Of a stretch of 64,000 nt of DNA, positions 17,375-31,022 are shown piece after piece. The stretch's first letter is position 1, and each line of letters begins with the position of its first letter. The notes below the pieces were generated by a model. It had not been told where the DNA came from and did not search any database. It was given only the letters and a program-made list of their open reading frames with translations. Source of the DNA: Desulfoferula mesophila (GTDB lineage: Bacteria; Desulfobacterota; Desulfarculia; Desulfarculales; Desulfarculaceae); the NCBI RefSeq assembly GCF_037076455.1, contig NZ_AP028679.1, positions 449,501 through 513,500 on the forward strand, given 5' to 3'. The position numbers and the translations under genes are program-made.

Positions 17375-17863
17375 TCAGGCTATCAGGTCTTCCTGCCAGG
17401 TGTAGTCGAACTGACAGAGTTCGTCGCCCTGGCCGATGAAGGTGGGGCGCTCCAGGTGCAGCTTGGGCGAATAACCCCGGGCAAAGGCGAAGTCACGGCA
17501 GCAGGAGAGCACCGGCAACAGCTCCGGGGCCAGGCCCATCTTTTCATACAGCTTCAGATAGCCGCAGCCGGTCACCGTCAGGCTCATGCGGTCCCGCCCC
17601 AGTTCGTAGCCTTCGGTCTCCAGGGAGCCGGGCACGGCCATGAGCCGGTCCCAGATGGTGGCGAAATGCTCCAGGCTGGGCCCGGTCTTGGACTCGGCGG
17701 CAAAGGCCTTGCCCGCCTCCTCGGCGGTGTGCTCCACCATCTGGGTCATGGCCGCCAGGGCCTCTTCCTGACCCAGGCGCTTTTTGAGCACCTCGTATAC
17801 CTGGGCCAACACCGTGGCCTCGATCTCCCGGCGCACCAACAGGGGAACCTGGTTGACGTTCAT
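17375..17863 (-). CDS. Probable L-2-amino-thiazoline-4-carboxylic acid hydrolase family protein
   Basis: A 162-residue protein resembling the ATC-hydrolase family. It has an N-terminal helical region, a central GRDRMSLTVTGCGYLKLYEKMGL segment, the cysteine pair LSCCRDFAFARGY, and a terminal FIGQGDELCQFDYTW. In that family a conserved cysteine near the C-terminus acts in hydrolysis, or the fold serves as a sensor. I start at ATG 17863 with GGGAG 7 nt upstream. It lies downstream of the thiolase operon but is separated from it by a strong terminator, so it is probably expressed independently. The family call rests on remembered pattern, not on a search. Confidence 0.6.
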   Translation of the reverse strand: MNVNQVPLLVRREIEATVLAQVYEVLKKRLGQEEALAAMTQMVEHTAEEAGKAFAAESKTGPSLEHFATIWDRLMAVPGSLETEGYELGRDRMSLTVTGCGYLKLYEKMGLAPELLPVLSCCRDFAFARGYSPKLHLERPTFIGQGDELCQFDYTWQEDLIA

Positions 17864-17940
17864 GCCTTTACTCCCGGCAAGGGTGTGATGTAGGGGCTTG
17901 GTCCAGCTTGCCCCATCGAGCGCGCGGGGCGCAACGGGCA

Positions 17941-17975
17941 AAAAATCGCCGCCCGGCCGGGGCCGGGCGGCGATG
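17941..17975 (-). terminator. Strong rho-independent terminator of the acyl-CoA operon
   Basis: A 14-bp perfect stem (17946-17959 with 17962-17975) followed on the minus strand by a run of six T (17946-17941). It lies 44 nt after the thiolase stop and marks the end of the operon beginning at 22974. Confidence 0.92.
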
Positions 17976-18018: not shown

Positions 18019-19212
18019 TCAGGAAACCTTGAACACCACCGAAGCGGCGGTGTCGCCGGCGGCGCAGCCCGCGAACAGGCCGTAGCCGCCGCCCTTCATG
18101 ACCAGCTCTTCGATAAGTTCCACCATGCAGCGGGAGCCGGTGGGGCCCTGGGGGTGGCCGAAGATCATGGAGGAGCCGTAGTTGTTGAATATCTCGTCGG
18201 GGATGTTCATCAGGCGGCCCATGACGATGTCGTTGATGGTGAAGGGGTTGTGGGTCTTCACCGCGGCCAGGTCCTTGACCTCCAGCCCGGCGTTTTTCAG
18301 AGCCATCTGGGCCGAGGGGGTCACCGCCGCGGCCATGCGGGCCTTGGCCGCCCGGGCGTAGCCGTAGGAGAGAATCTGGATGGTCACGCTCTTGTCGGCG
18401 CTTAGCTCCTGGGCCTTTTCCTGGGTGGTGACGATGAGCCCGGCGTTGCCGTCGGCCGGGTGGGTCTGGGCCCCGAAGGTCAGGGCGCCGTCGGGCAGGA
18501 TGGGCTTCAGGGAGGCCAGCCCCTCGGCGGTGGTGGGCATGATGCCCTCGTCGGCCTCCACGGTGATGGTCTTCTTTTTGCTGACCTTCACGTCCACCGG
18601 GATCATGTAGCCCTTTTGGAAGGCCCGGTCGTCGGCCAAGGCCATCTCGTACTGCTCATAGCGCCTGAGCGCCATGGCGTCGGACTCTTCCTTGCTTACC
18701 CCGCCGTTGTCCTGGCCCACCAGCTCGGCGGTCATGAACATGGCCTTGCCGCCGTAGGGGTCCTTGTTGAAGTTGTCCATCATCCAGTTTTCGCTGATCA
18801 CCTCGGCGCCGGGGCCCTTGGGGTTGGGCCACACGGTGTGGGGGCCGTTGGAGCAGCGGTCGGTGGTGGCCACCAGGTTGCACTCGTAGGCGCCGCACTC
18901 CAGGCCGGCGGCCGCGGTGTAGAGCGCGGTGGCGCTGGTGGCGCAGGCCTGGCTCACGGTGGAGCCGGAGATGCGGTCGTTGCCCATGAGGGCGCAGTAC
19001 CAGGGGTTGGCATAGAACCAGGAAGGCATGCCGATGGTCATGCCGAAGGTGCAACCGTCGAACACGGCCGGGTCGATGCCTCTGAGCTCCAGGAACTTCT
19101 TGGTGGTGTCTGCCGCAAGCTTGATGGGATGCTCGTTTTGGAACGATCCCTGCCAACGGGAAAAGGGCGAGGACCAGTATCCTTTGTAGGGAACGAAGGC
19201 TTTGCTAAACAT
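18019..19212 (-). CDS. Thiolase-family protein (acetyl-CoA acetyltransferase-like)
   Basis: A 397-residue thiolase-fold protein, last gene of the acyl-CoA operon. The nucleophile is C90 in VSQACATSATAL, the active-site His lies in GHPQGPTG near residue 355, and the second cysteine is in FAGCAAGD near 384; NPFT (NEAF-like position) is also present. Classical degradative thiolases have GHPIGATG and a CxGGG motif, so this member is divergent and may use an unusual acyl-CoA. GGAG lies before the ATG. Together with the CoA ligase, activase and dehydratase it suggests activation, dehydration or reduction, and thiolytic cleavage of a carboxylic acid. Confidence 0.82.
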   Translation of the reverse strand: MFSKAFVPYKGYWSSPFSRWQGSFQNEHPIKLAADTTKKFLELRGIDPAVFDGCTFGMTIGMPSWFYANPWYCALMGNDRISGSTVSQACATSATALYTAAAGLECGAYECNLVATTDRCSNGPHTVWPNPKGPGAEVISENWMMDNFNKDPYGGKAMFMTAELVGQDNGGVSKEESDAMALRRYEQYEMALADDRAFQKGYMIPVDVKVSKKKTITVEADEGIMPTTAEGLASLKPILPDGALTFGAQTHPADGNAGLIVTTQEKAQELSADKSVTIQILSYGYARAAKARMAAAVTPSAQMALKNAGLEVKDLAAVKTHNPFTINDIVMGRLMNIPDEIFNNYGSSMIFGHPQGPTGSRCMVELIEELVMKGGGYGLFAGCAAGDTAASVVFKVS

Positions 19213-19293: not shown

Positions 19294-20871
19294 CTATTTG
19301 TCCGACCAGTGTCCGTAGCGGTCCCTTAGCACCCGGTGCAATATCTTGCCGGTGCCGGTGCGGGGCATCTCCTCTTCGGCCACGAAATAGATGTTCTTGG
19401 GGCGCTTGAAGCCGGCGATCTTGCCCTTGGTGAACTCCGAGAGCTCCTTGGCCAGCTCTTCGCCGGGCTCGTAGCCCTGGTGGGTGATGACCACGGCGGT
19501 GACGCTCTCGCCCCACTTGTCGTCGGGCACCCCGATCACCGCCACGTCCTTGACCGCCGAGTGGCCGCCCAGGCAGTCCTCCACCTCGCTGGGGTAGACG
19601 TTCTCCCCGCCGGTGATGATCATGTTCTTCTTGCGGTCCACCAGGTAGTAGTAGCCCTCGTCGTCCATGTAGGCCATGTCGCCGGCGCTGAAGAAGTCGC
19701 CCACGAAGGCGTCCTTGGTCACCTCGGGCAGCTTCCAGTATTCGCTGAACATGGCCGGGCCCCGGGAGTAGAGCTCGCCCACCTCGCCCACGGGCACCTC
19801 TTTTTTGTCCTCGTCCAACAGTTTGATGACATCGGTGCCGGGGATCTCGCGGCCGATGGAGCCCAGCTTGTCGAATTGCTCCGAGGGCAGCAGCAGGGTG
19901 ACCAGGCCGGCCTCGGTGGAGCCGTAGGCCTCGTAGAGCTGGCTGTTGACGAAGTAGTCCATGATGGACAGCTTGAGATCGCGCCGGGCCGGGGCCGAGG
20001 AGATCAAAAGCTTTTTCACGCAATCCACGTTGTATTTGGCCTTAACCTCCTCAGGCAGGGCCAGCATCATGATGTAGTGGGTGGGCACCAGGGAGGTGAA
20101 GGTGATGCCGAACTCGCTCAGGGTCTTGATCATGTGCTCGGGGTCGAAGGACACCGAGTTGTACACCAGCGCCGTGGCCCCCAGGCAGGTGAACACGAAG
20201 GAGTAGAACACGCTGTTGATGTGGCACATGGGCATGACCAACAGGCCGCGGTCGTCGCGGTCGTAGCCCATGGCCGCGATGTTGGTCCAATACTTGCCCG
20301 CCAGCGACTCGTGGGTGCGCACCACGCCCTTGGGGCGGCCGGTGGTGCCGGAGGTGTACATGATGATCCAGGTGTCCTCGTCGTAGACCTTGGTGGCCGG
20401 CTCCTCGGGCGAACCGGCGGCCATCAGCTCCTCCAGGTGGGTGTAGCCCGCCGGGGCGTCGCCCTCGCCCATGTAGATGTAGCCCTTGTCCTTGATGGTC
20501 TCGAAATCTGGCTTGGCGTCGGTCACGTCGGCGGCGAAGGGCTTCTCCACGATGATGGCGCTGACTTCGGCGTTGTTGAGGATGTAGGTGTATTCGACAG
20601 GGGTCAGGCGGAACATGATGGGCACGGCCACGAAGCCGCCCTTGGCGCAGGCCCCGTAGAACTCCATCCACTCCAGGCAGTTGTAGGCCAACATGGCGAT
20701 GCGGTCGCCTTTTTTGAGCCCCAGGTCGCCCAGGGCGTTGGCCAGGCGGCAGCAGCGCTCGTTGTACTCCTTGAAGGTCAAGGATCGGTTCAGATCCGCC
20801 ACCCCCTCCTTGTCCGGAAACTTGATGGCGTTTACCCGAAGAATATCGGCCACGGTGAGCCAGCGGTTCAT
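19294..20871 (-). CDS. AMP-dependent acyl-CoA ligase
   Basis: A 525-residue member of the ANL adenylating superfamily that activates a carboxylate to its CoA thioester with ATP. The P-loop is YTSGTTGRPKG from residue 172; YGSTEAGL and the GDMAYMDDEGYYYLVDRKKNMI hinge block (split here only in description) follow, then the C-terminal lid with PRTGTGKILHR. It resembles medium-chain or aromatic acid ligases, but the substrate cannot be read from sequence alone. It lies between the activase and the thiolase in the same operon, separated from the activase by a GC hairpin. Confidence 0.9.
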   Translation of the reverse strand: MNRWLTVADILRVNAIKFPDKEGVADLNRSLTFKEYNERCCRLANALGDLGLKKGDRIAMLAYNCLEWMEFYGACAKGGFVAVPIMFRLTPVEYTYILNNAEVSAIIVEKPFAADVTDAKPDFETIKDKGYIYMGEGDAPAGYTHLEELMAAGSPEEPATKVYDEDTWIIMYTSGTTGRPKGVVRTHESLAGKYWTNIAAMGYDRDDRGLLVMPMCHINSVFYSFVFTCLGATALVYNSVSFDPEHMIKTLSEFGITFTSLVPTHYIMMLALPEEVKAKYNVDCVKKLLISSAPARRDLKLSIMDYFVNSQLYEAYGSTEAGLVTLLLPSEQFDKLGSIGREIPGTDVIKLLDEDKKEVPVGEVGELYSRGPAMFSEYWKLPEVTKDAFVGDFFSAGDMAYMDDEGYYYLVDRKKNMIITGGENVYPSEVEDCLGGHSAVKDVAVIGVPDDKWGESVTAVVITHQGYEPGEELAKELSEFTKGKIAGFKRPKNIYFVAEEEMPRTGTGKILHRVLRDRYGHWSDK

Positions 20872-20950: not shown

Positions 20951-21739
20951 CTACTCGCGCGCCAGTTGCCGGGCTCTGAAGTCCCGGGCCAGGATGGCCG
21001 CCCCCCAGGCGCCGTTGAGCTGGGGGCGGGGAGGCAGGAGCACTTGGCGTCCCAACTCCTCGCTCAGCATCTGGGCCAGATAGGGGTTGTGCGCGGCCAC
21101 TCCGCCGGTCATGACTACCGTGCCTTCGAGGATGTCCATTTCCATGACCCGCTTGACCACCGAGCGGAACAGGCCCTTGACCAGGGCCTCGACCTTGACG
21201 CCGTCGCGTATCTTGGACAGCACTTCGGTGGCGGTGAATACGGTGCAATAAGCGCCCAGGGTGGCCTCTTCTTGGGCGTCCCGGGCCAGTTGGTCGAGGC
21301 TCTCCAGGGGCAGATCCAGGCGCAGGGCCATTTCTTCCAGAAAGGCTCCGGTGCCCGCCGCGCACTTGCGGTTCATCTTGAAAGAGGTGCGCATACCCTT
21401 GGCGTTGAGCTTGATGATCTTGTTGTCTTGGCCTCCTATGTCCACCACGGTGAGCGCCTGGGGAAAATGATGATAGGCCCCGGCGGCGTGGCAAGCTATC
21501 TCGGTACGGGTCTCCTGGGCCATGGTGGCGTTCTTGCGGCCATAGCCGCAGGAGAAAATCCCGACGATGTCTTTCTGGTCCACCCCGGCCTGCTTGGCGG
21601 CCTCTTCCAAGGCCAGGTTGGCGCTGGCGGTGAAATCCACCCCCGAGCGCCGCACCGCGCTGCCCAAGAGGGCGCCGGAGTCGTCTATCAACGCCGCCTT
21701 GGTGGCGGTGGAGCCGATGTCTATGCCGCCGAAGACCAT
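20951..21739 (-). CDS. Acyl-CoA dehydratase activase (BadF/BcrA/HgdC ATPase family)
   Basis: An ASKHA-fold ATPase that reduces its partner [4Fe-4S] dehydratase or reductase by ATP-driven one-electron transfer. The 262 residues match HgdC-type activators. Motifs are GGIDIGSTATK at the N-terminus, GGQDNK at 102-107, and KCAAGTGAFLEEM with the cluster-ligand cysteine C126; a second conserved cysteine is in FSCGYGRKN. The usual homodimer shares one [4Fe-4S] cluster. Its start codon shares one base with the stop of the dehydratase gene (TGATG), so the two are translationally coupled and probably a cognate pair. Confidence 0.93.
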   Translation of the reverse strand: MVFGGIDIGSTATKAALIDDSGALLGSAVRRSGVDFTASANLALEEAAKQAGVDQKDIVGIFSCGYGRKNATMAQETRTEIACHAAGAYHHFPQALTVVDIGGQDNKIIKLNAKGMRTSFKMNRKCAAGTGAFLEEMALRLDLPLESLDQLARDAQEEATLGAYCTVFTATEVLSKIRDGVKVEALVKGLFRSVVKRVMEMDILEGTVVMTGGVAAHNPYLAQMLSEELGRQVLLPPRPQLNGAWGAAILARDFRARQLARE

Positions 21740-22974
21740 CAGGCGGCCATTTCCTCGATCTGCTCCACAAAGGCCTCGATATTGGTCTTGGCCTGCTCGT
21801 CGCTGAAGCAGCGCAGGTCGTTGAGGTCGCCGTTGATGACCAACGAGGGCACCCCGTGCACCTCGGCGAAGCGCTGGGGCAGGCCGTAGCGGCTGTTGGA
21901 GTTGTTGGGGCAGGTCTTGGCGTCGTGGAAGATGATGCCCTGGCAGCCGTAGCGCTCTACGTGCTCGAGCATGTAGGCCTCCTTGTAGGCCTCGTCGCGC
22001 ACGATGAACAGTTCGGTGTAGGCCCGGGCCATGGACTCAAAGGGATCGGCCGCGTCAAAAGCGCCGAAGATCCAGGAGTTGCAGTAGGTGGAGCAGACGA
22101 TGGCCGCCTTGAGCTCGTTCATCAGCTCGGCCAGCATGCGCAACCGGCCCCAAACGGGCATGCCGTCCCAATACAGGCGCAGGCGCTCGCCGGGCACGGC
22201 GGAGTAGCCCGCCTTTTCGCGCTCCACCAGCTCGGCCAACAGGGTGTTGTAATACTCGATGGCCTCGGGACGGCCCCTGAGCACCACCGCCGGAGCCATG
22301 TGGATGGTGTGGTCGAAGAAGTTCATCTGGGCGGGCACCCGGGCGCCGTATTCCAATACCGCGCGCCACTGCTCGGTGCACTGCTTGGATAGGCCCACCA
22401 CCTCGCGCAGGCGGTCGATGTCGAACTTGTTGCCGCTGACCTTTTCCAGGGTGGGGATGAGATCCTTGATCTGCTGGGCCACGTCGGCCACCATGTACTC
22501 GCGCACTTCGCCCACGCCCCGGTGGGTGCGCACCCCGATGGCCGGCACGTTGAAGTGGCGGCCGTACCACTCGAACCAGTCCTGCACGTCGCGGCACTGG
22601 TTGGTGTTGAACACCAACACGTCGGGCTTGGGCACGCCCTTGATGCCGTAGGCCTTGGTCAGGGGGGTGATGCCCTTGAGGAAGGCGCCGACGTCGGCGG
22701 TGAGGTAGGAACAGATGTCCGGGCTGTAGCCGATGGCGTTGGCCACGGGTATGGTATCGGTGGCGATGCGCGAGGCGCCCAAAAGGGCCCCGTGGTTCTC
22801 GGGGTAGTAGACCTCGAAACCCATGGCGATGAGCAGTTCGGCAGGACCCACGCTGGTGCACCAGGCCACCTTGGGGCTGCCCTCGGCCGCGGCGCGGTCC
22901 AGGGCCAGGAAGTGGTCGGCCATCAGCTTTTTCATCATCTTGGTTGCTTGAATCGGCGGTGTTTTTTCAGACAT
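21739..22974 (-). CDS. Single-subunit 2-hydroxyacyl-CoA dehydratase/benzoyl-CoA reductase-type protein
   Basis: A 411-residue member of the HgdB/FldB/BcrB/BcrC family, first gene of the acyl-CoA operon. Conserved cysteines that should bind an iron-sulfur cluster are C39 (WCTSVGPAELL), C88 (YSPDICSYL) and C127 (TNQCRD). Further cysteines follow later (VCSTYCNSW, KTCPNNSN). Known 2-hydroxyacyl-CoA dehydratases need two different subunits, and class I benzoyl-CoA reductase needs four, yet only one family member is encoded here. It could be a homodimer, as in double-cubane cluster proteins. An operator-like palindrome lies 90 bp upstream. The substrate is unresolved. Confidence 0.85.
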   Translation of the reverse strand: MSEKTPPIQATKMMKKLMADHFLALDRAAAEGSPKVAWCTSVGPAELLIAMGFEVYYPENHGALLGASRIATDTIPVANAIGYSPDICSYLTADVGAFLKGITPLTKAYGIKGVPKPDVLVFNTNQCRDVQDWFEWYGRHFNVPAIGVRTHRGVGEVREYMVADVAQQIKDLIPTLEKVSGNKFDIDRLREVVGLSKQCTEQWRAVLEYGARVPAQMNFFDHTIHMAPAVVLRGRPEAIEYYNTLLAELVEREKAGYSAVPGERLRLYWDGMPVWGRLRMLAELMNELKAAIVCSTYCNSWIFGAFDAADPFESMARAYTELFIVRDEAYKEAYMLEHVERYGCQGIIFHDAKTCPNNSNSRYGLPQRFAEVHGVPSLVINGDLNDLRCFSDEQAKTNIEAFVEQIEEMAA

Positions 22975-23062
22975 GACATCGTCTCCGGCCTATGCGACAC
23001 TTTGCCGCCGTGCAAGGCCGGAAACACGGCAAAGCGGGCCAAAAATGGTAGACACATGGTTA

Positions 23063-23089
23063 CAAGTTAGCTACAATCTAGCTAACTTG
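23063..23089. promoter_or_regulatory. Perfect 10-bp inverted repeat, candidate operator between divergent operons
   Basis: CAAGTTAGCT (23063-23072), 7 nt, then AGCTAACTTG (23080-23089). It is AT-rich in a GC-rich setting. It sits between the minus-strand acyl-CoA operon (start 22974) and the plus-strand Hdr operon, and overlaps the region upstream of a plus-strand -10 candidate TATAGG (23093-23098). The geometry suits a dimeric TetR- or GntR-type regulator; no regulator gene is adjacent. Confidence 0.7.
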
Positions 23090-23097
23090 CACTATAG

Positions 23098-23186
23098 GCA
23101 GGCCCGTCAGGCTTGTCAAGCGCTAATTTCCGGAGCTTAATCCGGCGCTTAGGGCCTTTTGCCCCCCCCTTGCGGGGGCGGTTTTT
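23098..23186 (+). promoter_or_regulatory. Structured 5' leader with intrinsic terminator before the Hdr operon
   Basis: Nested stems are visible: AGGCCC at about 23100 with GGGCCT near 23153, AAGCGC (23118-23123) with GCGCTT (23145-23150), and CCGGA (23130-23134) with TCCGG (23141-23145). They are followed at once by a C-rich/G-rich hairpin (CCCCC 23165-23169 with GGGGG 23174-23178) and TTTTT (23182-23186). The hdrA-like start is 40 nt further on. A structured domain followed by a terminator ahead of an operon is the arrangement of an attenuator or riboswitch. Confidence 0.5.
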
Positions 23187-23226
23187 CGGGCCGGCAGATA
23201 AAGCTCTTATAACAGTTGAGGAAGCT

Positions 23227-24300
23227 TTGACCAACGCCCAATTGGACACGCCGGTGCTGATCCTGGGAGGCGGTGTTGCCGGGTTGGCCGCGGCGGTGGA
23301 CCTGGGCCGCCGGGGGGTGGCCGCCACCTTGATCGAGCGGGAACCCCGCCTGGGAGGCAGGGCCTCCGGGTTTTGCTGCAAGGCCACAGAGGCCTGCGCC
23401 CGTTGCGGGGCCTGCCGCCTGGGCGAGCTGCTGGCCCAGGCGGCCAAGTTGCCCCAGCTGAGTATCTACACCGCCGCCTTGGCCGTGGCGACCCAGCCCC
23501 GGGGCGAGGGATGGCTGGTGGAGCTGGCCCCCCAGCCCGGCGGCGAGGCCGGGCCCGGTCCGGGCCGCCCCCTTGAGGAGCGGACCACGGTGGCCGCCCA
23601 GGCGGTGATCCTGGCGGTGGGGGCCGAGGCCTTCGATCCGGCGGGCAAGACCCGTTTCGGCCACGGCCGGGTGGACGGGGTGTTCAGCGCCCTGGAGCTG
23701 GAGGCCATGCTGGCCCAGGGGGCCCTGGGGCCCCAGGCCCTGGCCCCGGCCAAGGTGGCCTTCATCCAATGCGTGGGCAGCCGCGACGCCTCCCTGGGCC
23801 GTCTGTGGTGCTCCCGGGTCTGTTGCGGCTACGCCCTGCGCATGGCCCGGGTCATCCGGGGCCTGTTGCCGGAAAGCGAAATCACCTTCTTCCACATGGA
23901 CGTGCAGGACTACGGCCGGGCCTGGGAGTCCGAGCTGGCCGAGCTGCGCCAAGACATGCGCTTCGTGCGGGCCATGCCCGGCGAGGTCACCGCCGGGCCT
24001 GAGGGCCCCCTGGTGAACTACGCCCTGGCCGGGGAGCCGCCGCTCAGGGAGGGTTTCGACCTGGTGGTGCTCTCGGTGGGCCTGGGCCCGCCCGCCGGGG
24101 CGACCGCCCTGGGCGAGCTGTTCGGCGCGGGCGTGGACGGCGACGGTTTCCTGGCCAGCCAGGACGGTCCGGCCGGGGTGTTCGTGGCCGGGGCGGCGGC
24201 CGGTCCCCGCTCCCTTAACGAATCCATCGTGCACGGCTCCCTGGCCGCCTCGTGGGCGGCCGGGCGGGTGGCCGCCCTGGCGGAGGCGCGCCATGGCTAA
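23227..24300 (+). CDS. HdrA-like FAD/iron-sulfur flavoprotein (short form)
   Basis: A 357-residue flavoprotein resembling the core of HdrA/QmoA. The FAD Rossmann motif is LILGGGVAGL (11-20), ending in an acidic residue in LIEREPRLGG. A cysteine cluster follows at residues 50-63 (CCKATEACARCGAC), the position where HdrA has its extra Cys-rich motif. A second region, KVAFIQCVGSRD, then CSRVCCGYALRMA, is typical of HdrA-type proteins. It lacks C-terminal ferredoxin domains. I start at TTG 23227 because GAGG lies 5 nt upstream. It is the first gene of a tightly overlapping Hdr operon, so it probably channels electrons among flavin and the Hdr clusters. Confidence 0.8.
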   Translation: MTNAQLDTPVLILGGGVAGLAAAVDLGRRGVAATLIEREPRLGGRASGFCCKATEACARCGACRLGELLAQAAKLPQLSIYTAALAVATQPRGEGWLVELAPQPGGEAGPGPGRPLEERTTVAAQAVILAVGAEAFDPAGKTRFGHGRVDGVFSALELEAMLAQGALGPQALAPAKVAFIQCVGSRDASLGRLWCSRVCCGYALRMARVIRGLLPESEITFFHMDVQDYGRAWESELAELRQDMRFVRAMPGEVTAGPEGPLVNYALAGEPPLREGFDLVVLSVGLGPPAGATALGELFGAGVDGDGFLASQDGPAGVFVAGAAAGPRSLNESIVHGSLAASWAAGRVAALAEARHG

Positions 24301-26146
24301 GGTAAGTCTGGTTTGGGTGGCGACGCCGGGCCTCGAAGAGTTGGACCCGGCCCAGGTGGCCCAGTCCGCCGGCATGGTCCTGGATAAAGGCGGCCTCTTG
24401 GAGGCGGCGGTGGTGACCACCAGCCGGGAGCAGGCCCCCCGCCAGGTGTTGCAACGGCTGGTGGGCTTGCCGGTGACCTGGCTGGAGCTGGCGGCCGAGG
24501 TGGGCGGCGGGCCCCAGCCCCATCGCCTGGCCCGGGCGGCGGCGGCGGTTTCCCGCGCCGCCGGGCGGGCGGCCAAGGCCACCCTGCCCCCGGTGTACGC
24601 CCCCCAGCCCGCCCAGAGCGTGCTGGTGGCCGGCGCGGGCCTGAGCGCGGTGGCCGCGGCCTGGGAGGCGGCGGCCCTGGGCCATCCGGTCACCCTGGCC
24701 ACCCCCTGGGAGGCGGCCCACCAGGCCGGGGAAGACGACGACCCCGAGGCGGTGAGCCTCTTGGCCGCCCAGCTCCCGGCCCAGGTTGAGACCCTGCCCG
24801 GTTGCGAGCTGACCCGCCTCACCGGCGGGGCGGGCGGTTTCCAGGCCTGGCTTTCGGCCGCGGGCGAGACGCCCCAAACCTTTGGCGCGGTGTTTTTGGC
24901 CCCGCCCGGCGAGCTCACGGTGGGCTGCGAGGTGGCCGGCCTGGACCCGGAGCTGTGCCGCCCGGTGAGCGAGCTGAACCCCGAGGAGTACGAGGGGCCA
25001 ACGGACGGCTGGCTGCACGTGGCCGTCATGGCCGGCACGGCCCAAGCGGTGCCTTCCTACAGTTTCAGCGCCGCCCTGGAGGCGGCCCTGGCCCTGGCCC
25101 GGCGGCCCCGGGTGCAGGTGACCCTGTTGTTCAGCGAGGCCCGGGTGGCGACGCCCGGCGGAGAGCGGCTCTTCCGCGACTGCCGCGAGGCCGGGGTGCT
25201 CCTGGCCCGGGTGGCGCCCGGCGGGCTCACGGTGCGCGAGAGCGGCCGTGAGCTGGCCTGGCTCGATCCCCTGTTGGGCGAGGAGCTGGCGCTGGCCCCG
25301 GCGGCGATGATTTTGGCTCAACAGGCCACGGCCCCGCGTCCCGCCTGGCTGGACAACGAGCTGATCGTCAAGCCCTGGGAGGAACTGGTGCCCGAGAACC
25401 CCCGTCTGGCCGGGGGGCGCACCAGCCGCACCGGGTTCTACCTAACCGGCGCCCTGCGGGGCACCGCGCCCGGCCCCGAGCGCCGGGACGAGGCCGCCTC
25501 GGCCGCCGCCGCCATGCAGGAGGTGCTGGGCGGCAGGGTGGTGCCCATGCCCGCGGTGCGCGACGCCTACTGCGCCAGTTGCCTCACCTGCGTGCGCACC
25601 TGTCCCCACGGCGTGCCGCGCTACGTGGAAGACCATATCCGCTGCGCCCCGGCCGCCTGCGTGGCCTGCGGGGCCTGCGCGGCCGAGTGCCCGGCCGAGG
25701 CCATCGCCCCGCCGAGCTGGGGCAACCCGGAGATGTTCTCCGGCCTGGAGTGGGGCCTCGGGCTGGCGCCGGAGCCCAAGATGGTGCTCTTCGCCTGCTC
25801 CGCCTCGGGCATGCCCGCCGTGGGTTCCCTGTCGGCCGAGGGACACCAGTGGCCCGCCGGGCTGCTGATATACCCCCTGGTCTGCGCCGCCCGCATGAGC
25901 CAGGTGTTGTTGCTCAAGGCCCTGGAACTGGGGGCCAAGCGGGTGTTGGTGGCCGGCTGCCATCCGGGCAACTGCCGCTCGGTGAGCGGCAACCACAAGG
26001 CCATGGCCAAGATCGCCGCCCTGCAAGGCGACCTGGCCGCGCTGGGCCTGCCCACCGACGCGGTGCGTTTCCTGCCCCTGGCCGCCAACCAGACCAGGGA
26101 GCTGGCCCAAGAGGTGGCCCGGATGGCCAAGGAGGCCCAGGAATGA
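24293..26146 (+). CDS. HdrA-like protein with ferredoxin and MvhD domains
   Basis: A 617-residue fusion. The N-terminal 400 residues look like a degenerate HdrA flavin fold: a glycine motif VLVAGAGLSAVAAAWEA is present near 105-120, but the strand end lacks the usual acidic residue. Two [4Fe-4S] motifs follow at about 426-468 (CASCLTCVRTCP and CVACGACAAECP). The last 120 residues are an MvhD/FlpD domain (FACSASG, then GCHPGNCRSVSGN), which in methanogens links hydrogenase or formate dehydrogenase to HdrA by a [2Fe-2S] cluster. It overlaps the previous gene by 8 bases and the next by 4. This is the likely electron hub of the complex. Confidence 0.82.
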   Translation: MAKVSLVWVATPGLEELDPAQVAQSAGMVLDKGGLLEAAVVTTSREQAPRQVLQRLVGLPVTWLELAAEVGGGPQPHRLARAAAAVSRAAGRAAKATLPPVYAPQPAQSVLVAGAGLSAVAAAWEAAALGHPVTLATPWEAAHQAGEDDDPEAVSLLAAQLPAQVETLPGCELTRLTGGAGGFQAWLSAAGETPQTFGAVFLAPPGELTVGCEVAGLDPELCRPVSELNPEEYEGPTDGWLHVAVMAGTAQAVPSYSFSAALEAALALARRPRVQVTLLFSEARVATPGGERLFRDCREAGVLLARVAPGGLTVRESGRELAWLDPLLGEELALAPAAMILAQQATAPRPAWLDNELIVKPWEELVPENPRLAGGRTSRTGFYLTGALRGTAPGPERRDEAASAAAAMQEVLGGRVVPMPAVRDAYCASCLTCVRTCPHGVPRYVEDHIRCAPAACVACGACAAECPAEAIAPPSWGNPEMFSGLEWGLGLAPEPKMVLFACSASGMPAVGSLSAEGHQWPAGLLIYPLVCAARMSQVLLLKALELGAKRVLVAGCHPGNCRSVSGNHKAMAKIAALQGDLAALGLPTDAVRFLPLAANQTRELAQEVARMAKEAQE

Positions 26147-26646
26147 GCGTGCGCCTCAACGATTGCGATCCCGGCTTCAAGCACGAGGTGGCCGCCGAGC
26201 CCGGCAGCGAGGGCATCCGCGCCTGTTTCGCCTGCGCCGCCTGCAGCGCCCGCTGCCCGGTGGGGGCCAACCGGCCGGACTACGACCCCCGCCGCCTCAT
26301 CCGCCTGACCCTGTTGGGCCGGCGCGAGGAGGTCCTGGCCTCGCCGCTCATCTGGCTGTGCTCCTCCTGCTATTCCTGCGGCGAGGTCTGCCCCCAGCAG
26401 GTGCGCTTCACCGAGGTGCTCACGGCCATCAAGAACATCGCCGCCCGGGAGGGGCACGCCCCGCCCTCGGCCAAGGTGACCGCCGAGCTGTTGGCCAAGC
26501 AGGGACGCCTGCTGGAGATCACCGAGTTCGAAAACCAAAAACGCGCCGACCTGGGGCTGCCCCCGGTGGAACAGCGCCCCGGCGACTTCCAGGCCATCCT
26601 GGGGATAGAGCCAGACCAGGGCGAGGCCGGAGAGGAGCCGCGATGA
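26143..26646 (+). CDS. hdrC: Heterodisulfide reductase subunit C-like iron-sulfur protein
   Basis: A 167-residue soluble HdrC with two [4Fe-4S] sites: C28/C31/C34/C38 (CFACAACSARCP) and C73/C76/C79/C83 (CSSCYSCGEVCP). In known HdrABC complexes it passes electrons from HdrA to the HdrB active site. It overlaps its neighbours on both sides by ATGA, so it is stoichiometrically coupled. The length is slightly shorter than methanogen HdrC but normal for bacterial versions. Confidence 0.92.
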   Translation: MSVRLNDCDPGFKHEVAAEPGSEGIRACFACAACSARCPVGANRPDYDPRRLIRLTLLGRREEVLASPLIWLCSSCYSCGEVCPQQVRFTEVLTAIKNIAAREGHAPPSAKVTAELLAKQGRLLEITEFENQKRADLGLPPVEQRPGDFQAILGIEPDQGEAGEEPR

Positions 26647-27518
26647 AGGCGCTGTTGTTCTTGGGCTGCACCGTGCCGGTGCGCAATCTCAACTACGAGG
26701 TGAGCGCCCGCAAGGTGTGCGAGGCCCTGGGGGTGGAGCTGGTGGACGACGCGGCCCTGGCCTGTTGCGGCTACCCCCTCAAGGGCACCGACCAGGCCCA
26801 CGCCCTGACCATCGCCGCCCGGGCCCTGGCCCAGGCCAGGGGCCACGATTTGCCCCTGGTGGCCCTGTGCTCGGCCTGCGCGGGCACCCTGGCCGAGGCC
26901 GAGCATCGTCTAAGCCACAACCCAGAGGAAGTGGCGCGGGTCAACGCCGAGCTGGCTCCCCTGGGCCTGGAGTACGCCCCCGGAGTGCGGGTGACCCACC
27001 TGGTGCGCTATCTGCTGGAGGAGGTGGGCCTGGAGGCCATCAAGGCCAAGATGACCCGTGACCTGAGCGAGTTCACCTTCGCCCCCCACTACGGCTGCCA
27101 CTACCTGAAGCCCTCGGAGACCATCGGCGGCCTGGACGACCCCGAGGCCCCCACCAGCATGGGGGCGCTCATCGAGGCCACCGGGGCCAAGGTGGACAAT
27201 TACCCCCGGCTCAAGGACTGCTGCGGGGGCGGGGTGTTGGGGGCCGACGAGGAGCTGGCCGGGGCGCTGGCCGGGGCCAAGCTGGCCGAGCTCGACGCCC
27301 GCCAGGTGACCGCCATGGCCCTGGTGTGCCCCTTTTGCAACGTGATGTACGAGGGCCAGCAAAAAGCCATCGCCAAGCGCATGGACACCAAGTTCAAGGT
27401 GCCGGTGGTCTACCTTACCCAAATTCTGGGCCTGGGCCTGGGAATGACGCCCGATGAGCTGGGTTTCAAGCTCAACCGTTCCAAGCCCAAGGAGCTGTTG
27501 GCCGCCTTTAAGGAGTAG
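26643..27518 (+). CDS. hdrB: Heterodisulfide reductase subunit B-like CCG-domain protein
   Basis: A 291-residue protein with two CCG domains. The first has GCTVPVRN, ACCGYPLKG and CSACAGT; the second has GCHYLKP, DCCGGGVLG and CPFCNVMY. In HdrB these ligate two noncubane [4Fe-4S] clusters that cleave a disulfide. Both motifs look intact, so a disulfide or other thiol-level substrate reduction is plausible; sulfate reducers have no CoM-S-S-CoB, so the natural partner may be DsrC-like or another small thiol carrier. The next gene encodes a lipoyl carrier, which is a candidate substrate. Confidence 0.93.
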   Translation: MKALLFLGCTVPVRNLNYEVSARKVCEALGVELVDDAALACCGYPLKGTDQAHALTIAARALAQARGHDLPLVALCSACAGTLAEAEHRLSHNPEEVARVNAELAPLGLEYAPGVRVTHLVRYLLEEVGLEAIKAKMTRDLSEFTFAPHYGCHYLKPSETIGGLDDPEAPTSMGALIEATGAKVDNYPRLKDCCGGGVLGADEELAGALAGAKLAELDARQVTAMALVCPFCNVMYEGQQKAIAKRMDTKFKVPVVYLTQILGLGLGMTPDELGFKLNRSKPKELLAAFKE

Positions 27519-27628: not shown

Positions 27629-28057
27629 ATGGAAGTAGGCGGCTATAATTTTCCCGACGATCTCTACTATGACCAGAACCATTACTGGGCCAAGGTGGAG
27701 GGCGGCGTGGTGATAATGGGCACCACCGACCTCACCCAAAAACTGGCCGGCGAGATCACCTTCGTGGACGTGCCCGAGGAGGGCGACGAGGTGACCCAGG
27801 GCAAGCCCTTCGGCTCCATCGAGAGCGGCAAATGGGTGGGCCGGGTCTACGCCGTGGTCTCCGGCGAGGTGGCCGAGGGCAACGAGGAGTTGGAGGACGA
27901 GCCCGAGCTGATCAACTCCGACTGCTACGGCGATGGCTGGATCTGCAAGATCACCCCCGGCGATCTTGCCGGCGACCTGTCCAAGCTGATGCAGGGCGAG
28001 GCCTACAAGGAGTGGGTGGCCGCCGAGATCGCAAAGATGGAAAAGGACCAGGCCTAG
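27629..28057 (+). CDS. GcvH-like lipoyl carrier protein
   Basis: A 142-residue protein of the glycine cleavage H family. The barrel and lipoyl hairpin are seen in YWAKVEGGVVIMGTTDLTQKLAGEITFVD (given as landmarks YWAKVEGG and FVDVPEEGDEV), and the lipoylated lysine lies in IESGKWVG, where the usual form is ESVKA. AGGAGG sits 9 nt before the ATG. No glycine cleavage P or T gene is nearby; its neighbours are hdrB and the GlcD-GlcF fusion. In sulfur oxidizers a related lipoate-binding protein works with the sHdr complex. By analogy this carrier may exchange electrons or sulfur groups with the Hdr proteins here. Confidence 0.88.
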   Translation: MEVGGYNFPDDLYYDQNHYWAKVEGGVVIMGTTDLTQKLAGEITFVDVPEEGDEVTQGKPFGSIESGKWVGRVYAVVSGEVAEGNEELEDEPELINSDCYGDGWICKITPGDLAGDLSKLMQGEAYKEWVAAEIAKMEKDQA

Positions 28058-28186: not shown

Positions 28187-28433
28187 TGTTTAGCGCCGGT
28201 CCCGTCTGTTGAACGGGCCGGAGGCTTGTCGACCGGTAATTTAGGATTCACGCGGCCCCCGCCGGACAAGCGCCGGCGCATCAGGGGCGGGGTTGCCCCG
28301 CAGGCCCCGGCCCCGCCGGGCCGCCGCGAAACTGGGCCCGAAGGCCCAGCCCCAGCCACGTCGAGACCCGAGCATTGCCCGCCGTTTCGGAGAGGAGGCC
28401 GAAGCGGCAAGGCGCGCCGGGACAGGAGGAGTC
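28187..28433 (+). ncRNA. Candidate structured 5' leader of the GlcD-GlcF gene (unassigned)
   Basis: This 250-nt noncoding stretch holds several compact hairpins in order. CCCGT pairs with ACGGG near 28201-28217. GCCGG (28261-28265) pairs with CCGGC (28273-28277). CGGGG-TTG-CCCCG (28288-28300) is nested in GGGG/CCCC. CTGGGCC-CGAA-GGCCCAG (28332-28349) is enclosed by CGAAAC (28327-28332) and GTTTCG (28384-28389), sharing one base. It ends in AGGAGG before the start codon. The density of perfect stems and the tetraloop suggests a structured RNA, but I cannot match a known riboswitch class. Confidence 0.4.
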
Positions 28434-31022
28434 ATGGAGATCAACCAGAAGCTTGTGGAGATCGTGGGGGAGGAGAACGTAGTCACCAACCCGGCCGACT
28501 GCCAGGCCTACAGCCGGGACATGTCGGTGCACATGGCCCCGCCCCAGGTGATGGTATTCGCCGAGACCACCGAGCAGGTGAGCGCCATCCTGGCCGCCTG
28601 TAACGAGGCCGGGGTGCCGGTGATCGCCCGGGGCGGCGGCACCAGCGTGACCGGCGCGGCCCTGGCCCCCAAGGGCGGGGTGCTCTTGAACCTCATCCGC
28701 ATGAACAAGATCCTGGAGATCAACCTGCCCGACCACTACGCCAGGGTGCAGTGCGGCGTGGTCTGCGGGGCGCTTAACGCGGCGGTGGCCGAAAAGGGCT
28801 TCTTCTTCCCGCCCGATCCGGGCAGCGCGGGCATCGCCACCATCGGCGGCATGATCAACACCAACGCCAGCGGCATCCGGGCGGTGAAGTACGGCACCAC
28901 CAAGGATTACGTCATGGCGCTCAAGGTGGTGCTGGCCGACGGGCGCGTTCTGGACACCGGGTCCAAGGCGCCCAAGACTTCCAGCGGCTACAACCTGTCC
29001 CAGCTCTTCTGCGCCTCGGAGGGCACCCTGGGGGTGATCACCGAGGCTACCATGAAGATCCTGCCCGCTCCGGCCTACGCCATCAGCGCCCGCCTGGAGT
29101 TCCCGGACATCCAGACCGCCGGCGACGCGGTGACCGAGATGCTCACCTCCGGGGTGCCCATCGCCACCTGCGAGATTTTGGACAACGTGTCCATCGCGGT
29201 GTTGGCCAAGGCCATCGACCTCAAGGTGGCCGAGGGCGTGGGCTGCATGATCATGCTGGAGTTGGACGGCCACCGCGCGGCGGTGGAGGACTACGTCAAG
29301 CAGGTAGACGACATCGCGGGCAAGCACAGCCTGATCGGCGCCAAGTGGACCGACGACCCGGTGGAAAAGGCCCCCCTGTGGGAGGCCCGCCACCGCCTGG
29401 TGCCGGCCATGAGCCGCCTCAAGCCCGGCTATCGCCTGGTGCCTTTGATGGAAGACTTCGGGGTGCCCATGACCAAGATCCCCGAGACCATCCGCCAGAT
29501 CCAGGCCATCGGTGAAAAGCACGGCTTCCCCATCGCCACCTTCGGCCACATCGGCGACGGCAACCTGCACGCCACCTTCATCATGGACGTGAAAAAGTCC
29601 GACGAGTGGGAGGCGGTCAAGAAGATCGTCTTGGAGTTCGTGGAGCTCACCGCGGCCATGGAAGGCACCATGAGCGCCGAGCACGGCCTGGGCATGGCCA
29701 AAGCCCCGGTGATCGTCAAGGAGCTGGGGGCCACCGGCCTGGAGGTGATGCAGACCATCAAGGACGCCATGGACCCCAAGGGGGTGCTCAACCCCGGCAA
29801 GCTGGGCCTGAGGGGCTCCATCGAGGATGTCTACGACACCAGCGGCTTCGAACCCCTGCGCCTGCAAACGGGCGAGGTCAACACCTTCGGCGAGGTGGAC
29901 AACGAGATCGTGGCCTGCATCCAGTGCGGCTTCTGCCGCCTGGGCTGCCCCACCTACGCCCAGACCGACCTGGAGTCCATGAACGCCAAGGGGCGCATCA
30001 CCCTGGCCTTCAGCCTGCTGGCCGGGCACATGCAGCCCTCGGTGGAGATGGCAGACCGTTTGTACAAGTGCATGCTCTGCCTGAACTGCAAATACACCTG
30101 CCCGGCCCAGATCAACCTGGCCGCCGTGGTGCAGGCCGCCCGCAAGCGCCTGGTGGAAACCGGCTACCTGCCCGAGATATTCGTCAAGCTCATGAGCGAC
30201 ATGGTGGAGGCGGGCAACCCCTTCAGCATGCCCCGCGACACCCGCACCGACTCCTACCCCGTGGGCTATGAGCCCAAGCCGGGCGCCGACACCCTGCTGC
30301 ACCTGGGCTGCGTGGCCTCTTACCAGGACGTGAAGATCATCCCCGCGGTGATGAAGATCCTGGACGCGGCGGGTATAGAGTTCACTACCCTGGGCAAGGA
30401 AGAAAACTGCTGCGGCTACCTGGCCTATTTGGTGGGGGACATGGAAACCTTCCACACCGTGGCCGCGGCCAATGACAAGATTTTCAAGGAGCAGGGGGTG
30501 AACACCCTGCTCACCACCTGCGCGGGCTGCTACAAGACCTTCGAGGACGTCTATCCCCACCAGGGCCACGGCGACGGCTACAAGCCCGAGCACGTGGTGT
30601 TCCTGCTGGAAAGGCTCATCAACGAGGGCAAGCTGAGCTTCGAGCCCGACGGCAAGCCCATGAAGGCCATCTACCACGACCCCTGCGACCTGGGCCGCCA
30701 CCTGGGGGTGTACGAACCGCCCCGCGAGGTGATCAAGGCCCTGCCGGGGGTGGAGCTCTTGGAGTTCCCCCAGAACCGCACCCTGGCCAAGTGCTGCGGC
30801 GGCGGCGGCGGGGTCAAGGCCTTTGCCAACGAGTTGGGCGGCGACATCGCCTTCGAGCGCATCAAGGTGGCCATCGCCCAGGGAGCGGACACCGTGGTCA
30901 GCGCCTGTCCCTCCTGCAAGAACTCCCTGAACCAGGCTGCGGCCCGGGCCCGCAAGGAAAAGCTGGGCAAGATAAAGGTGATGGACATCACCGAGCTGGT
31001 GGCTTCGCGCCTGGCCAAATAG
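28434..31022 (+). CDS. Fused GlcD-GlcF-type FAD/Fe-S 2-hydroxyacid (lactate/glycolate) dehydrogenase
   Basis: An 862-residue fusion. Residues about 35-215 form the PCMH-type FAD domain (PVIARGGGTSVTGAALAPKGG), followed by the FAD-oxidase C-terminal domain to about 460 (HIGDGNLHATF). Two [4Fe-4S] motifs lie near 495-556 (CIQCGFCRLGCP and CMLCLNCKYTCP). Two CCG domains end the protein (ENCCGY near 657, KCCGGGGG near 786, each with a later CxxC), as in GlpC/HdrD. Such fusions oxidise D-lactate, glycolate or another 2-hydroxyacid. The CCG half resembles HdrB, and the gene follows the Hdr/lipoyl operon, so it may feed electrons to it. Confidence 0.9.
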   Translation: MEINQKLVEIVGEENVVTNPADCQAYSRDMSVHMAPPQVMVFAETTEQVSAILAACNEAGVPVIARGGGTSVTGAALAPKGGVLLNLIRMNKILEINLPDHYARVQCGVVCGALNAAVAEKGFFFPPDPGSAGIATIGGMINTNASGIRAVKYGTTKDYVMALKVVLADGRVLDTGSKAPKTSSGYNLSQLFCASEGTLGVITEATMKILPAPAYAISARLEFPDIQTAGDAVTEMLTSGVPIATCEILDNVSIAVLAKAIDLKVAEGVGCMIMLELDGHRAAVEDYVKQVDDIAGKHSLIGAKWTDDPVEKAPLWEARHRLVPAMSRLKPGYRLVPLMEDFGVPMTKIPETIRQIQAIGEKHGFPIATFGHIGDGNLHATFIMDVKKSDEWEAVKKIVLEFVELTAAMEGTMSAEHGLGMAKAPVIVKELGATGLEVMQTIKDAMDPKGVLNPGKLGLRGSIEDVYDTSGFEPLRLQTGEVNTFGEVDNEIVACIQCGFCRLGCPTYAQTDLESMNAKGRITLAFSLLAGHMQPSVEMADRLYKCMLCLNCKYTCPAQINLAAVVQAARKRLVETGYLPEIFVKLMSDMVEAGNPFSMPRDTRTDSYPVGYEPKPGADTLLHLGCVASYQDVKIIPAVMKILDAAGIEFTTLGKEENCCGYLAYLVGDMETFHTVAAANDKIFKEQGVNTLLTTCAGCYKTFEDVYPHQGHGDGYKPEHVVFLLERLINEGKLSFEPDGKPMKAIYHDPCDLGRHLGVYEPPREVIKALPGVELLEFPQNRTLAKCCGGGGGVKAFANELGGDIAFERIKVAIAQGADTVVSACPSCKNSLNQAAARARKEKLGKIKVMDITELVASRLAK

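Follow-up and report, generated by a model that had tools for sequence, protein, structure and literature searches.

Tandem TAGCTA boxes over divergent HGD-D and Hdr promoters in Desulfoferula mesophila: a probable operator of anaerobic aromatic catabolism with DUF2080 as candidate regulator

Results

Divergent HGD-D and Hdr operons flank a perfect inverted repeat

The site described here lies between two divergent operons in a 64-kb stretch of the Desulfoferula mesophila genome (the window; Table 1). The left, acyl-CoA operon opens with a gene for a 2-hydroxyacyl-CoA dehydratase D-component/benzoyl-CoA reductase-like protein (HGD-D), whose solved relatives are the 2-hydroxyisocaproyl-CoA dehydratase alpha subunit (3o3m), MbdO and BzdO. 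It continues through genes for an activase, an acyl-CoA ligase and a thiolase-family protein to what may be its last gene. The right operon begins with an HdrA-like flavoprotein gene, with a probable TTG start after GAGGAAGC, and runs on through HdrA-FlpD-, HdrC- and HdrB-like genes. These are followed by genes for GcvH-like (27629-28057) and GlcD/FeS-like (28428-31022) proteins, both named by inspection. The order from Hdr through GcvH-like to GlcD/FeS-like genes is kept in two loci (L035 and L037), and together these genes possibly form one electron-transfer cluster.

Table 1. Genes, boxes and promoter elements at the site (window positions)
Feature	Position	Strand	Basis or remarks
ATC_hydrolase-family protein, possible last gene of left operon	17375..17941	-	PF14196
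Thiolase-family protein	18019..19212	-	PF00108/PF02803
AMP-forming acyl-CoA ligase	19294..20871	-	PF00501
BadF/BcrA-type activase	20951..21739	-	PF01869; TIGR00241 above cut-off
HGD-D, first gene of left operon	21739..22974	-	PF06050, 2.8e-65
-35 element TAGACA, promoter to Hdr operon	23049..23054	+	TGGACA in 13/17 genomes
Box A, TGGTTA (TAACCA on - strand)	23057..23062	-	Alignment; outside inverted repeat
Inverted repeat 11-5-11 (boxes B, C and flanks)	23063..23089	.	
Box B, TAGCTA	23068..23073	.	Alignment
-10 element TACAAT, Hdr promoter	23072..23077	+	Conserved, asymmetric loop of palindrome
Box C, TAGCTA, 11 bp from box B	23079..23084	.	Alignment; CAGCTA in G019
-10 element TATAGT, HGD-D promoter	23091..23096	-	17/17 genomes; TATGAT, TATATT in relatives
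-35 element TTGACA, promoter to HGD-D operon	23114..23119	-	17/17 genomes
HdrA-like flavoprotein, first gene of right operon	23227..24300	+	HdrA name by inspection and context
HdrA-FlpD (MvhD)-like protein	24293..26146	+	PF02662, Fer4
HdrC- and HdrB-like genes	26143..27518	+	Two genes
HdrC-like	26143-26646	+	Fer4_8
HdrB-like	about 26643-27518	+	Named from sequence, by inspection

Between the operons, CAAGTTAGCTACAATCTAGCTAACTTG matches exactly and forms a perfect inverted repeat, with 11-bp arms around a 5-bp loop. A preliminary description of this DNA had reported a long, perfect, AT-rich repeat in GC-rich surroundings, and the repeat is real (36% G+C in the arms versus 66.6% for the whole window); the seven-nucleotide spacer given there has to be replaced by the 11-5-11 geometry. 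The pattern has no match at up to three mismatches in 100 dinucleotide shuffles of the window. In the 4,479,191-bp genome, a 25-bp version with 9-bp arms has no second match at up to two mismatches and one further match at three. Longer perfect inverted repeats occur elsewhere in the window, of 15 bp at 2256 and 34863 and of 12–14 bp at other places, and these have a higher G+C content.

The site is conserved upstream of orthologous operons, the point on which the preliminary description had staked its proposal. At E 1e-100 or better, an HGD-D relative is present in 19 of the 21 genomes of the order, and in 17 of these 19 the site, recognized by its core and a CAAT loop, lies upstream of the gene. 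The two exceptions are a gene cut by a contig end (G010) and a genome from another family (G020). Beyond the site, HdrA is divergent in all 15 genomes examined for it. HGD-D paralogs and more distant relatives (L011-L016, L018, L039, L040) are without the site. The perfect 11-bp symmetry is limited to D. mesophila and one close relative: the contiguous arm across the 17 orthologous sites is 11 bp in 2, 7–8 bp in 13, 6 bp in 1, and 0 in 1. In these 17 sites the flanks of the palindrome show no conservation as arms. Its loop, dispensable in a simple dimer operator, is conserved.

Tandem 6-bp boxes make up the conserved element

What recurs is a row of tandem 6-bp boxes set 11 bp apart, comprising two TAGCTA boxes (B and C) and a third, TGGTTA-like unit (box A) that reads TGGTTA, TGATTA or TGACTA in relatives. 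Read on the minus strand, the site is a series of direct repeats, TAGCTAGATTG-TAGCTAACTTG-TAACCA, and boxes B and C look like an inverted repeat because TAGCTA is its own reverse complement. The pair starting at box B is the only TAGCTA-like pair at an 11-bp offset in the window; some weaker genome matches are likewise paired at this offset (2153791/2153802 and 3912720/3912731).

Across the 21 genomes of the order, the direct-repeat pattern TTGTAGCTANNTTGTARCTA gives 200 hits at up to three mismatches (100 per strand) versus 17 for the reversed control, totals that are summed from per-genome tables and count overlapping registers of one array separately. The palindrome pattern at up to two mismatches gives 100 places versus 48 in the control. 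Offsets between boxes, measured upstream of DUF2080 genes (see below), peak at 11 and 22, three-unit arrays exist, and a box A-type third unit is present in other sites of the regulon. Given the pairs at 11-bp offset, the excess of direct repeats over control and the unconserved outer arms, we dropped the palindrome as the recognition unit.

Two overlapping promoters run through the array

Alignment of 15 intergenic regions places a sigma-70-like promoter on each strand, with -35 and -10 elements spaced by 17–18 bp. Both promoters are kept in 17 of 17 genomes, a set selected by the core, which includes the ACAAT of the Hdr -10 element. Within 22900-23300 of the D. mesophila window, promoter-like pairs number exactly these two, against 0.2 expected in shuffles. 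The array contains the -10 element of the Hdr promoter and starts directly after that of the HGD-D promoter; the palindrome loop is conserved because it is the Hdr -10 element. Transcripts are predicted to start near 23084 for both promoters, which would therefore be mutually exclusive and share the site.

The site thus looks like a regulatory site common to the HGD-D and Hdr operons. That a single regulator could govern both operons and so link them, as originally suggested, gains support from the overlap with both promoters and from the divergent HdrA.

Downstream of the Hdr promoter, the hdrA leader contains a terminator-like hairpin with a T-run at 23159-23181. A simple pattern for this hairpin matches in D. 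mesophila only, among 15 genomes compared, and it is a possible attenuator or a chance occurrence.

The array accompanies a DUF2080-GNAT gene pair

The array also precedes a gene for a 66-aa protein that is followed by a GNAT gene (L165 and counterparts). The 66-aa protein is a DUF2080 member, with 29.0 bits to PF09853 (cut-off 21.5) and 74.2 to NF033496 (cut-off 22), and carries the NCBI name "transposase-associated protein"; a second array-bearing copy in the genome scores 20.2 bits, under the Pfam cut-off. A MazE/AbrB-like (SpoVT-AbrB) DNA-binding fold is tentative: DUF2080 matches MazE (PF04014) weakly and below cut-off (E 0.014) and has no sequence relative among PDB entries. Its AlphaFold2 model (mean pLDDT 58.6) was too poor for a structure search. 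The preliminary description had envisaged a TetR or GntR gene with a copy of the site at its own promoter: a candidate with such a copy exists, but it belongs to neither family.

A DUF2080 match at E 0.01 or better is found in 20 of the 21 genomes of the order, G018 being the exception. Among the 20 best loci, 10 have the three-mismatch pattern upstream of DUF2080. Seventeen family promoters of DUF2080 (all but those of G008, G017 and G020) were aligned: every one has TTGACA, followed by recognizable, partly diverged boxes, and the aligned loci that miss the pattern carry diverged arrays. The best match in G017 is a paralog of 56% identity without the site, and the paralogs at L207, L209, L210 and L214 are also without it; G008 and G020 have DUF2080 and few pattern hits (4 and 1, versus 1 and 1 in the control). 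A matrix built from 13 of the aligned promoters, with no window DNA included, scores 32.1 bits at 23058-23093; overlapping registers come next, and the next unrelated place in the 64 kb scores -2.0. On the reversed window the matrix reaches at most -1.6 bits. A shorter DUF2080 matrix gives the site 23.1 bits, versus 2.2 for the next unrelated place and 3.6 for the reversed window.

Across the phylum, a DUF2080 relative is present in 40 of 297 genomes. We scored 25 further DUF2080 loci with the matrix (23 newly retrieved, plus G008 and G020). An array above 12 bits lies upstream of DUF2080 in 17 of the 25 (16 of the 24 outside the family), and 8 have no array; elsewhere in the same loci, scores above 12 bits occur in 2 of 25. 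The array thus stands at the promoter of DUF2080 itself both in the family alignment and in most of these loci, 23 of which contain GNAT and 14 aldehyde:ferredoxin oxidoreductase (AOR). Where DUF2080 genes were chosen by protein homology alone, offsets of upstream TAGCTA-like pairs stand out at 11 and 22. Pairs at offset 11 number 11 in 15 family promoters and 19 in 23 others (one of them G008), against a shuffle mean of at most 0.2 and a maximum of 2; control stretches gave 0 of 37. Considered together, these sequence data make DUF2080 most likely an autoregulated regulator of the array. Array linkage alone does not prove binding by DUF2080, which might itself be a regulon member controlled by another protein.

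A phylum-wide profile was dropped as evidence. At least one pattern hit is present in 35 of 40 DUF2080-bearing genomes and in 128 of 257 others (Fisher p 4.6e-6), but both relatedness and base composition confound this comparison. Summed over the 33 genomes with DUF2080 outside the family, there is no excess (124 hits versus 161 in the reversed control). Upstream of DUF2080 in G008 (L203) is a three-box variant, TGGCTA-TATAA-TAGTTA-TATTA-TAGCCA, which is nearly palindromic overall.

The array recurs upstream of aromatic catabolism genes

At the loci chosen for retrieval, a selection from all pattern hits, the array lies upstream of ior in 11 genomes, of paaK in 12, of an SDR-had cluster in 12 (with oah seen in three of those loci), of AOR in 7 (not all the same paralog) and of an acyl-CoA dehydrogenase/glutaryl-CoA dehydrogenase operon in 4. 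In a few genomes it precedes sodium:solute symporter, DUF3795 or TRAP-transporter-like genes, identified by inspection. Genes were named by translated comparison with D. mesophila proteins, by Pfam/NCBIfam or from translated reading frames; family models are above cut-off for oah (TIGR03200), had (TIGR03201), IOR_alpha (TIGR03336) and glutaryl-CoA dehydrogenase (NF045552), and PaaK is below its family cut-off (555.6 versus 646.3). Behind the array stand pathway genes of aromatic catabolism, from its benzoyl-CoA and phenylacetate/aryl-pyruvate side. The genome search for the motif that had been proposed at the outset returns a strict palindrome that is unique at up to two mismatches, together with related arrays before other aromatic genes.

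The convincing members in D. mesophila are the window site, ior (L162), had/oah (L163), AOR (L167), paaK (L084) and the two DUF2080-GNAT copies (L165). Promoter-like pairs adjoin the arrays at ior, at had/oah and at the two DUF2080 genes; alongside the AOR and paaK arrays there is no promoter pair at threshold. Orientation relative to the genes varies, that of paaK being opposite to HGD-D, and many regulon sites are non-palindromic yet keep the 11-bp direct repeats. Scores of 13–14.5 bits are reached by a site close to TRAP-like genes (L164) and by a 199-bp element that occurs twice in the genome at 94% identity (L082:3893-4091 and L083:3954-4152) and carries an array-like box pair.

Other matches were dropped. 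A second ior-like operon (G000:C1:1205370, L069) has a 1-mismatch palindrome match upstream and scores 0.3 bits by matrix; the best scores in the L070 and L085 loci are 2.6 and 6.6 bits; and L166 scores -0.2 bits, its direct-repeat hit falling where an ABC-transporter gene starts. In two genomes of other families, G174 and G306, direct-repeat hits number 22 versus 2 and 11 versus 1 in the control, which suggests large regulons outside Desulfarculaceae.

Discussion

How sulfate reducers and syntrophs regulate the anaerobic degradation of aromatic compounds is, to our knowledge, poorly known. The present analysis offers an operator open to experimental test, a group of target operons and, annotated as transposase-associated, a gene for the candidate regulator. 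We favor, with a probability of roughly 0.7, a model in which the site is an operator of an anaerobic aromatic (benzoyl-CoA-type) catabolism regulon, with a tandem TAGCTA array over overlapping promoters and DUF2080 as its likely autoregulated regulator. The array, its 11-bp period, its conservation, its overlap with promoters, the membership of the regulon and the cross-family linkage to the regulator gene emerge directly from the computation; from these we infer binding by DUF2080, repression and a relieving signal. Each self-complementary box would be read by one DUF2080 dimer, and since 11 bp is about one helical turn, proteins on successive boxes would share one face of the DNA. Protein bound to the array would keep polymerase off both overlapping promoters, such that the acyl-CoA and Hdr electron-transfer operons would be switched together. 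DUF2080 would also block the promoter of its own DUF2080-GNAT pair. For GNAT, the fold prompts the guess that it may sense an acyl group or transfer one.

A bolder version of this model is tentative and, on balance, doubtful. DUF2080-GNAT may be an unrecognized, phylum-wide master switch of anaerobic aromatic metabolism, possibly a domesticated toxin-antitoxin-like pair. DUF2080 dimers on one face of TAGCTA arrays would shut overlapping promoters, and GNAT, which has an acyl-CoA-binding fold, would sense aryl-CoA or acylate DUF2080, whereupon the regulon opens.

An OmpR/PhoB-type response regulator could instead read the array as monomers on 11-bp direct repeats, a spacing that suits this class, and DUF2080-GNAT would then be just a target. 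Array-like sites lie upstream of a kinase and an NtrC-type regulator in G012, G013 and G014, which makes a two-component regulator of the array possible, and a receiver and hybrid kinase are divergent to ior. We nevertheless consider an OmpR/PhoB-type reader unlikely. The palindromic TAGCTA box suits a 2-fold dimer on each box, DUF2080 keeps the array in other families, where it is the sole target traced, and the receiver next to ior lacks a DNA-binding domain. No OmpR-type gene beside an array was noticed among the retrieved loci. NtrC-type proteins normally act with sigma-54, whereas the array promoters look sigma-70. The sensor kinase/NtrC pair, with its array-like site upstream in three genomes (L067, L097, L101), was rejected as the regulator: none of 19 kinase/NtrC-type loci (L102-L116, L123-L126) has a palindrome match at up to three mismatches, reaching 1.5 kb out, and NtrC-type orthology is loose because each genome has 4 to 18 relatives.

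Odd-spaced palindromes are usual for the TetR, GntR and MarR families, and the perfect 11-5-11 dyad of D. mesophila would accommodate such a dimer. This was the type of operator that the preliminary description had in mind, and it is now very unlikely: arms exceed 8 bp in only 2 of the 17 orthologous sites, the recurring element is the direct-repeat array, also at sites that are not palindromes, and at the retrieved loci no regulator of these families recurs or was noticed with the site at its own promoter; one GntR-like gene there (by inspection) lies ∼2 kb from the G012 site. Another reading, for which the two overlapping promoters running through the array speak, is that it is conserved only as promoter elements and start sites, with no regulator; boxes spaced by 11 bp before other genes, far over control, make this extremely improbable. 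We give scarcely any credence to the idea that the palindrome works in RNA, as a 5′-terminal hairpin of the HGD-D mRNA with a role in stability or attenuation, and not as a DNA operator. The predicted transcript begins within the palindrome, its first 19 nt fold as a 7-bp stem, and the whole leader has a z of -2.18, with 4 of 200 shuffles folding equally well. Against this, the array faces its genes in either orientation and also takes non-palindromic forms, the Hdr -10 element accounts for the conserved loop, and there is no Rfam match.

Among known systems, OmpR/PhoB-type sites such as that of WalR (TGTWAH-N5-TGTWAH) are also 11-bp direct repeats; in contrast, the TAGCTA box is self-complementary, and none of the retrieved loci links such a regulator to it. 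MraZ, of the AbrB superfamily, regulates its own dcw operon. As described in the accessible parts of the papers cited here, the MraZ site in Mollicutes consists of AAAGTG[T/G] direct repeats in its own promoter (PMC8475190), an arrangement that, like ours, joins a small regulator to a row of direct repeats at that regulator's promoter. The likeness drawn here is one of layout: the repeat sequence differs, and DUF2080 consists of a single short domain, is partnered by GNAT and has its candidate targets in aromatic catabolism. The AbrB protein of Geotalea daltonii is an AbrB-type regulator linked to anaerobic benzene/toluene degradation, and its binding site, of TGGNA type, lies in the promoter of the rpoN operon; neither a TAGCTA array nor a GNAT partner figures in the accessible part of its description (PMC11497800). 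SpnP2/DUF2080 is listed among antitoxins of nuclease toxins in two-gene modules (PMC10440598). That family shares the domain name and the two-gene layout, but here DUF2080 adjoins GNAT and its arrays are common to catabolic genes. In the literature searched, mostly outside subscription journals and in its accessible parts, we found no description of a TAGCTA array or of DUF2080 as its regulator, and the available text of PMC6129605 mentions no regulator.

In a methanogenic consortium, the benzene-activation "Magic" cluster of ORM2 places genes for a GNAT and for a "transposase-associated protein" next to bamQ, a gene of the benzoyl-CoA pathway (PMC13101534). Going by the NCBI name, this is probably the same kind of gene pair as DUF2080-GNAT. 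The ORM2 pair was not detected in the proteome, and in the accessible text the authors leave it without a role, suggesting that benzene degradation may not involve it (PMC13101534). For D. mesophila, the array ties both the HGD-D/activase/ligase operon and the Hdr-FlpD complex to aromatic metabolism, and therefore offers a hint at their function. In composition, the left operon, with a single HGD-D subunit gene and a single activase gene, differs from the two-subunit dehydratases and from the four-subunit benzoyl-CoA reductases.
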